DNA of 64,000 nucleotides from positions 103,259 to 167,258 of the forward strand of contig VBWC01000001.1 of the NCBI GenBank assembly GCA_006218035.1. Direction: 5' to 3'. The first letter of the stretch is position 1. Every line of letters begins with the position of its first letter. Below the pieces are notes generated by a model. That model was given only the letters and a program-made list of their open reading frames with translations. It did no database searches and was not told the origin of the DNA. Source of the DNA: Gammaproteobacteria bacterium. Lineage in GTDB: Bacteria > Pseudomonadota > Gammaproteobacteria > VBWC01. Of the stretch, positions 40,015-42,901 are shown in pieces. A program made the translations under genes and the position numbers.

Positions 40015-41202
40015 CTAACGGCCGATCGCTCGCTCCAGATCGGCGATCAGGTCCGCGGCGTCTTCAAGTCCGACCGAGATCCGCACGAGACCGTCACCGA
40101 TACCGGCCGTCCGGCGTGCATCGGCTGACATGCGACCGTGCGTGGTCGTTGCCGGATGCGTGATCGTGCTCTTGGCATCGCCCAGATTGGCAGTAATCGA
40201 AATCAGCTGCACCGCATCGATCAGTTTCCATGCCGCGTCGCGCCCGCCAGCGACATCAAACGAGATGATGCCGCCGAACCCTGATTGCTGCCGCGCGGCG
40301 AGCGCATGCTGCGGATGCGACGGCAGACCCGGATAGTTGACGCGGGTGATGCGTCGCTGCTGTTGCAACCATTCGGCGATCAACTGTGCGTTACGGCAAT
40401 GCGCCTGCATACGCAGGCTCAGCGTTTCGAGCCCGTGCGCAAACACCCACGCGTTAAACGGGCTCAGACACGAGCCGGCGGTGCGCAGATAACCGTACAC
40501 CTGCGTACCCACTACGGCCTCGCTGCCAACGACCGCGCCACCGATGCAGCGACCCTGCCCGTCGATGTACTTGGTCGCCGAGTGCACCACGATATCGGCA
40601 CCGAGTTCCAGCGGCCGTTGCAGCACCGGCGTGCAGAACACGTTATCCACGACCAGCAGACACTCATGGGCATGGGCCAGCGCCGCCAGCGCCGGAATGT
40701 CCGCGACCTCGGTCAGCGGATTGGCCGGCGTCTCGATAAACAGCAGCCGGGTGTTCGGCCGGATCGCCGTCGCCCACGCCGTCACATCCGTCAATGATAC
40801 AAATGTCGTTTCGACACCGAACCGGCCGAGGATGTTCTCGAACAACAGTATCGTCGAGCCGAACAGACTGCGCGACGCGACAATGTGATCACCGGCGCGC
40901 AGCACGCCCATACAGGTCGCCATGATCGCGGCCATGCCGGACGACGTCGCCACGCAACGTTCGCCGCCCTCCAGCGTCGCAAGACGCTGTTCGAAGACGC
41001 GCACGGTCGGGTTGGTAAAGCGCGAGTACAGGTTACCGGGTTCCTCACCGGAAAACCGCGCCGCCGCCTGTGCCGCGCTGTCGAAACAGAAACTCGACGA
41101 CAGGAAGATCGGTTCGCTCTGCTCGCCTTCATTGGTACGCCGCTGTCCGGCGTGCACGGCGCGCGTATTAAATCCGAACTCTTCGGGATCTGACTTTAAC
41201 AT
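40015..41202 (-). CDS. metZ: O-succinylhomoserine sulfhydrylase
   Basis: FNTRAVHAGQRRTNEGEQSEPIFLSSSF, YSRFTNPTVRVFEQRLATLEGGERCVATSSGMAAI, HSATKYIDGQGRCIGGAVVG. Position next to purF and the SAM-II-like leader supports metZ. Confidence 0.93.
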   Translation of the reverse strand: MLKSDPEEFGFNTRAVHAGQRRTNEGEQSEPIFLSSSFCFDSAAQAAARFSGEEPGNLYSRFTNPTVRVFEQRLATLEGGERCVATSSGMAAIMATCMGVLRAGDHIVASRSLFGSTILLFENILGRFGVETTFVSLTDVTAWATAIRPNTRLLFIETPANPLTEVADIPALAALAHAHECLLVVDNVFCTPVLQRPLELGADIVVHSATKYIDGQGRCIGGAVVGSEAVVGTQVYGYLRTAGSCLSPFNAWVFAHGLETLSLRMQAHCRNAQLIAEWLQQQRRITRVNYPGLPSHPQHALAARQQSGFGGIISFDVAGGRDAAWKLIDAVQLISITANLGDAKSTITHPATTTHGRMSADARRTAGIGDGLVRISVGLEDAADLIADLERAIGR

Positions 41203-41255: not shown

Positions 41256-41348
41256 AAAAAAACCCGCTTCACGTTATAGCTAAAGCAGGTTTTCCCTCGC
41301 TTTAGCTGCATTTATTTCGCGCCCGCAAGCTGAACTCAAATCGGCGCG
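41256..41348 (-). promoter_or_regulatory. SAM-II-like riboswitch (aptamer ~41294-41348) with intrinsic terminator/antiterminator upstream of metZ
   Basis: RNA (minus): ACGCGCCGAUUUGAGUUCAGCUUGCGGGCGCGAAAUAAAUGCAGCUAAAGCGAGGG, resembling the recalled SAM-II pattern CGCGCYGAUUU..UUGC..GCGCG..AUAAAUG.AGCUAAA. Downstream CCTGCTT (41283-41289) pairs AAGCGGG (41263-41269), then T7 (41256-41262). Confidence 0.85.
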
Positions 41349-41389
41349 TCGGAGTAGCCTAGAAAATGGCCGGCAAATTGTCAACCGGA

Positions 41390-42901
41390 TCACGACACGT
41401 TATACAACTCGAGGAGCTCGGCGTCCGCCTCCTGACGCTCGCGTTTCCTGATGTCGCTGCGGATATTCTCCAATCCGTCGAGGTAGTCGCGCGTGACGTC
41501 GCCGGTAACATACTTGCCGTCAAAACACGATGTATCGAATTCGGTAATCCGCGGATTGCCGCGCTGCACCGCGTCGATCAGATCGTCAAGGTCCTGGTAG
41601 ATCAGCCAGTCAGCGCCCAGTACGCGCTCGACCTCGCGTTCGTCACGACCATGGGCGATCAGTTCGCTCGCTGTCGGCATGTCGATACCGTAGACGTTCG
41701 GATACCTGACCGGTGGCGCCGCCGATGCGAAATACACCTTCGCCGCACCCGCTTCCCGCGCCATCTGGATGATCTGCTGCGACGTTGTGCCGCGTACGAT
41801 GGAATCGTCGACCAGCAGTACATTCTTGCCGGCGAATTCGAGCTCGATCGCATTCAGTTTCTGGCGCACGGATTTCTTGCGCATCTCCTGGCCGGGCATG
41901 ATGAACGTGCGCCCGATATAGCGGTTCTTGATAAACCCTTCGCGATACGGCACGCCGATATGGTAGGCAAGCCGCAACGCCGACGTGCGGCTGGTGTCCG
42001 GGATGGGGATCACGACATCGATATCGTGATCCGGCCGCTCGCGCAGGATCTTTTCGGCAAGCTTCTCGCCCATGCGCAGACGCGCCTTGTACACCGAGAT
42101 ATCGTCGATGATCGAATCCGGTCGCGCCAGATAGACGAATTCAAAAATACACGGCGTATAGCTGGGTTTCTCGGCGCACTGGCGCGTGCTTATCTTGCCG
42201 TCCCGGCTGATGAACACCGCCTCGCCGGGCTCGAGATCGCGTATCAACTCGAACCCGAGCACGTCGAGCGCCACGCTCTCCGACGCGATGATGTATTCGG
42301 TGCCCTTGTCGGTTTCACGCTTGCCGAACAGGATCGGCCGGATGCCGTGCGGATCGCGAAAGCCGACGATGCCATAGCCGATGATCAGCGCGACGGCGGC
42401 ATAGCCGCCGCTGCAACGCCGGTGCACCCCGGCGACCGCCTCGAACACGTCGTCCTCGTCGACGCGCAAACGGCCGGCGTGATGCAACTCATGGGCGAAT
42501 ACATTCAGCAGGATTTCGGAATCGGATTCCGTGTTGATATGGCGCAGGTCCTCGAGAAACAGATCGCGCTTCAACCGGTCCGCGTTGGTCAGGTTGCCGT
42601 TATGCGCCAGCCCGATACCGAACGGGGAATTGACGTAGAAAGGCTGCGCCTCGGCCGACGATGAACATCCCGCCGTCGGATAGCGCACATGGCCGATACC
42701 CATGTCGCCCTGCAGCCGCATCATATGGTGGGTACGGAACACATCGCGCACCAGGCCGTTGTCCTTGCGCAGTGCGAGGCGGCCGTTATCGCAGGTCATG
42801 ATGCCGGCGGCGTCCTGGCCGCGGTGCTGCAACACGGTGAGGCCGTCGTAGAGATCCTGGTTGACGTTGCCTTTACCGACTATCCCGATAATGCCGCACA
42901 T
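41390..42901 (-). CDS. purF: Amidophosphoribosyltransferase
   Basis: [61 protein letters not shown]. Confidence 0.97.

Follow-up and report, generated by a model that had tools for sequence, protein, structure and literature searches.

Position and likely promoter of the metZ leader

The question raised by this locus is which element occupies the stretch between purF and metZ and how it could control the gene behind it. In the window (the whole stretch of DNA analysed, 64,000 nucleotides), the putatively regulated gene metZ, coding for O-succinylhomoserine sulfhydrylase (40015-41202, minus strand; NCBIfam TIGR01325, 582.8 bits, cut-off 510), has as its upstream neighbour on the same strand purF, coding for amidophosphoribosyltransferase (41390-42901, minus strand; NCBIfam TIGR01134, 525.1 bits, cut-off 350). 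An Rfam search of the window at curated cut-offs returned tRNA only and no riboswitch match. A first-pass annotation had placed a SAM-II-like riboswitch with an attenuation platform between the two genes, and every leader element that it quoted was recovered on the minus strand in exactly its place. On the sequence evidence described below, the metZ leader is very probably a SAM-II OFF switch acting by transcription attenuation.

The leader appears to have a promoter of its own. A -35 hexamer TTGACA (41379-41384, minus strand) and a -10 hexamer TAGGCT (41356-41361, minus strand), the latter identified from the sequence and from relatives, are separated by 17 nucleotides, score 9/12 and stand just ahead of the first aptamer helix, P1; they form the likely metZ promoter, with a predicted transcription start at about 41349, immediately ahead of P1. 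In the leaders of relatives, the promoter score had a mean of 8.96 versus 6.81 in shuffles, with similar placement, and TTGAC was present in the corresponding stretch of 113 of the 137 related leaders. A fixed-limit scan of the window for promoters and terminators listed neither this promoter nor the metZ terminator, the former because TAGGCT agrees with TATAAT at only 3/6 positions, which makes a weak -10, and the latter because its loop is larger than 8.

Family match and anatomy of the aptamer

The Rfam model RF00521 (SAM_alpha/SAM-II) matched 41284-41357 (minus strand) along its entire length (positions 1-79 of 79), scoring 31.0 bits (E 2e-5); at E<=0.001 this was the single match across the 3.0-Mb genome. 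The covariance-model hit that the first-pass annotation had called for was thus obtained with a significant E value over the full model, but with a score 5 bits under the curated cut-off of 36 bits. Since this cut-off is a threshold for annotation and does not describe the structure of the class, the leader is still filed as SAM-II, and metZ downstream of it is the gene context of that class. Between 41150 and 41450, nothing matched the models for SAM-V, SAM-II long loops or SAM-SAH at E<=1. With R1, a model that we built to estimate what RF00521 misses, the leader scored 76.5 bits (E 6.6e-16), a score that is not independent since the R1 alignment contains the window's own sequence; the next match in the genome had an E value of 0.36.

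The whole aptamer extends from 41348 to 41299 on the minus strand. It opens with the 5' strand of P1, CGCGCC (41343-41348), located by sequence, RF00521 alignment and covariation, followed by the loop L1, GAUUUGA (GATTTGA in the DNA; 41336-41342), which in the RF00521 alignment holds U10, U11 and U12 of SAM-II. The 5' strand of the pseudoknot P2 comprises GCUUGC plus position 24 (41324-41330; RF00521 alignment and covariation), with GCTTGC read in the sequence at 41325-41330. Next come the 3' strand of P1, GGCGCG (41318-41323; sequence and covariation), the A-rich linker L3, AAATAAAT/AAAUAAAU (41310-41317; sequence), and the 3' strand of P2, CA-GCUAAAGC (41299-41308; sequence and covariation), so that the antiterminator 5' arm described below is included in the aptamer. 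P1, the U-rich L1, the pseudoknot P2, the A-rich L3 and a methionine gene downstream are shared with RF00521, whereas the GC-rich pairing of L1 with the 3' side in the RF00521 consensus (CGGCC/GGCC) is absent from the metZ leader.

For numbering, the leader was placed on the crystallised SAM-II sequence (2QWY), presumably with the same start. All nine core positions compared (G8, U11, U12, U20, U21, C23, G42, A45 and A46) were identical, and these bases, which make up the core triples, were near invariant in relatives. The likeness to SAM-II asserted by the first-pass annotation is therefore borne out by both the full-length family match and the core. In the SAM-II structure 2QWY the triples are G8-C23-G42, U11-U21-A45 and U12-U20-A46; the triples of U11 and U12 are made with P2b, and the O4 atoms of U11 and U21 sense the sulfonium of SAM (PMC3764141).

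These positions bear on the identity of the ligand, which we take to be SAM. A switch of ligand in a SAM-II-like aptamer, e.g. to SAH, would fit an RF00521 score under the Rfam cut-off, and the ligand is unreadable from sequence. However, all core positions compared are those of SAM-II, including the sulfonium-sensing U11 and U21 (PMC3764141), and the related elements mostly stand ahead of metZ and otherwise ahead of metK, metF and metN, which makes such a switch very improbable. A search of the genome for SAH riboswitches gave no match, but since the control set was equally silent, this negative carries no weight.

Covariation and the structured strand

The covariation set consisted of 88 distinct aptamers and the leader set of 137 related leaders. 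Standard pairs filled 95.7% of the pair cells in the 88 aptamers, while structures slid out of register reached at most 51%. In P1, double-sided changes were observed in 5/6 pairs; the inner five had been used in the selection of sequences, but the outer one had not, and it was paired in 105 of the 137 leaders versus 57.9 expected in shuffles. In the pseudoknot, pair 24-40, which lay outside the search pattern and, like all of P2, outside the RF00521 structure line (P1 only), was formed in 88/88 aptamers (80 GC, 7 AU, 1 CG) with 8 double changes, the compensatory change being from G24-C40 to A24-U40. The covariation score was 0.140 against 0.057 in shuffled alignments and was reached by 0/500 of them (88 distinct aptamers). 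Of the further P2 pairs, the two outermost were kept in 81/88 and 65/88 aptamers, and four, beside the ligand site, were invariant and are therefore neutral on pairing, neither supporting nor refuting it. In the set of 80 loci chosen via the MetZ protein, the covariation signal had the same direction but less strength, owing to the near invariance of the core.

Compensatory changes in both P1 and the pseudoknot, which had been named beforehand as a check on the proposal, were thus seen. The pseudoknot register itself had to be revised: the UUGC/GCAG pairing of the first-pass annotation was dropped for that of the crystal structure, which the alignments back (C23-G42, G22-C43, U21-A45 and U20-A46, together with 24 paired to 40).

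The pairs also indicate which strand is structured. The Rfam model RF02424, a small RNA family, matches 41272-41346 on the plus strand with 28 bits, below its cut-off of 70, and an RNA of this type from the opposite strand might be the real product of the locus. Against this, 28 T-G or G-T wobbles were counted in the relatives versus 6 C-A combinations, which would be the wobble pairs of the opposite strand, and the excess points to the metZ-sense RNA as the strand that folds. Promoter and U-tract also lie on the minus strand, and RF02424 matches (that in the window and L207-L216) lie on the strand opposite to the RF00521 or R1 matches of their genomes. We regard an opposite-strand product as extremely unlikely and retain the riboswitch on the metZ-sense strand.

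Overlapping antiterminator and terminator arms

Two mutually exclusive helices follow from the leader sequence between 41307 and 41256 (minus strand). The antiterminator 5' arm, AGCTAAAGC/AGCUAAAGC (41299-41307), is part of the aptamer 3' strand and a perfect 9-bp complement of the 3' arm, GCTTTAGCT/GCUUUAGCU (41278-41286), as the first-pass annotation had noticed; both arms were read from the sequence and from relatives, and the hairpin has a predicted energy of -16.2 kcal/mol. Overlapping the antiterminator 3' arm is the 5' arm of a terminator, ACCTGCTT/ACCUGCUU (41283-41290), which pairs with AAGCGGGT/AAGCGGGU (41262-41269) to give a hairpin of -11.9 kcal/mol, followed by a U-tract of seven (T7, 41256-41262) whose first U also closes the stem. 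The competing terminator that had been postulated is hence present. In the predicted minimum-energy fold of the ligand-free leader, P1 and the antiterminator are formed.

This design is conserved in relatives. An antiterminator helix of at least 8 bp was found in 86 of the 137 leaders (63%) versus about 16% with shuffled downstream sequence, a terminator in 105/137 leaders versus 46/411 shuffles (11%), and the competing arms overlapped in 65 of the 78 leaders having both. The base that flanks the antiterminator showed no covariation (24/66 versus 21.2 expected), and the support for this helix is therefore complementarity and overlap, not compensatory change. From the conserved overlap of the arms, the predicted logic is that bound SAM favours the terminator and turns metZ off.

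In the mechanism that we propose, RNA polymerase would start at the dedicated promoter past purF and make the aptamer (41348-41299) first. With SAM bound, the pseudoknot would retain the strand GCUAAAGC and block the antiterminator, so that the ACCUGCUU/AAGCGGGU hairpin and the U-tract would form and transcription would end ahead of metZ. When SAM is scarce, GCUAAAGC would pair with GCUUUAGC, taking up the terminator 5' arm, and metZ would be transcribed. The attenuation mechanism itself is textbook.

An aptamer whose main effect is on translation or mRNA stability, the hairpin being a constitutive terminator shared with purF, has a precedent in the SAM-II element of S. meliloti metA, which acts on translation and whose terminator is apparently SAM-independent (PMC9373788), and no terminator was detectable in about one in four related leaders. 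In the window, however, the aptamer ends about 97 nt from the start of metZ, which makes direct masking of the ribosome-binding site impossible, and the 5' arm of the terminator overlaps the 3' arm of the antiterminator, both in this leader and in the relatives counted above. We therefore consider this alternative unlikely and prefer SAM-dependent attenuation.

Distribution and gene context

Among 387 genomes sampled from the same class, RF00521 matched 122 at E<=0.001, with 31 exceeding the cut-off. R1 found the element in 189/387, a count that is not independent for the genomes whose sequences R1 includes; the modest novelty of this work lies in that breadth, 189 genomes by R1 versus 31 above the RF00521 cut-off. 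Most RF00521-matched loci were read, plus 80 metZ loci selected through their MetZ protein, with no RNA model involved. In the latter set, the element stood upstream of metZ and on its strand in 43/80 loci; among loci found by RNA model, 75/96 precede a metZ-like gene, and the extra R1 loci that were read are mostly ahead of metZ too. Carriers include Sulfuricaulis, Thiohalomonas, Competibacter, Thiohalophilus, Methylobacillus, Methylovorus and Methylotenera, and the closest relative is the gammaproteobacterium isolate nzgw581 (L022), with a MetZ identity of 98%.

Other genes of the pathway were also found behind SAM-II elements, their names being taken from reading the protein sequences. The element lies directly ahead of metK (SAM synthetase) at L008, L108, L119, L126, L205 and L240, ahead of metF at L009, L121 and L166, and ahead of a metN-like transporter gene at L130 and L238.

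Relation to described elements

The leader is not new in kind, since gamma- and betaproteobacterial, terminator-linked and Sinorhizobium metZ SAM-II elements have all been published. In 2007, SAM-II elements were described from alpha- and gammaproteobacteria and Bacteroidetes, the gammaproteobacterial cases being called sporadic, and in alpha- and betaproteobacteria the platform was usually a terminator (PMC2258182); by 2009 it was described as commonest in alpha-, beta- and gammaproteobacteria (PMC2704228). Owing to this literature and to the presence of the element in about half of the sampled genomes, the interest that the first-pass annotation had attached to the host is weaker than it supposed. 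S. meliloti metZ has a SAM-II riboswitch (RZ) in which SAM binding is likewise predicted to lead to a Rho-independent terminator (PMC9373788); the leader described here differs in belonging to another proteobacterial class and in having a perfect 9-bp antiterminator on the aptamer 3' strand.

Leyn et al. 2014, scanning with Rfam profiles, reported SAM_alpha from Rhizobiales and Rhodobacterales only and described a betaproteobacterial metXZ element with terminators as new (PMC4239095). Like the leaders studied here, the metXZ element has a pseudoknot and a downstream terminator and precedes metX or metZ, and it is reported ahead of metZ in Methylophilales (PMC4239095), where the SAM-II element was found here too. 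The latter stands ahead of metZ in Methylobacillus (L082), Methylovorus (L094) and Methylotenera (L088), three loci at which Rfam gave no match at E<=0.01. On account of these three, the metXZ element is probably a SAM-II riboswitch. A third name is RF02424 (Bp2_287), an annotated Burkholderia sRNA that covers the same DNA as the SAM-II leader on the opposite strand and appears to be a reverse-complement model of it.

It seems likely to us that the leader is one member of a large gamma/beta SAM-II branch, which about half of the species sampled in the class carry and which is largely missed by automatic annotation and split under the names SAM_alpha, metXZ and antisense Bp2_287. If so, this branch would be a main control of metZ in these bacteria and not a sporadic import. 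For the leader itself, left blank by standard annotation, the predicted riboswitch gives a reliable function. Refitting the SAM-II model with these sequences would allow leaders of metZ, metK, metF and metN to be annotated across many gamma- and betaproteobacteria and would revise the 2007 view of gammaproteobacterial SAM-II as sporadic; one Rfam sRNA family and one 'novel' element would probably become obsolete.

Variant and tandem elements

In the Methylophilales versions (L082, L088, L094 and L098) the L1 loop is enlarged, probably the reason why RF00521 misses them. At L031 (2577-2678) and L059 (2818-2893), an extra insert of about 20-45 nt separates the P1 3' strand from the conserved AAAT/GCTAAA. 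Tandem SAM-II is already known (PMC9481103), and tandem elements were observed at L110, L118, L184, L187, L202, L204 and L246-L249, where a variant aptamer, mostly GATTTAA..CAACTTGC..GCTAAAGCGTTGGC, comes second, after a SAM-II attenuator. These tandems precede non-methionine genes, whose products are a hydrolase (HD_4), an AAA ATPase of MoxR type and proteins that match no Pfam family. One genome (G261) had 10 matches to the R1 model.
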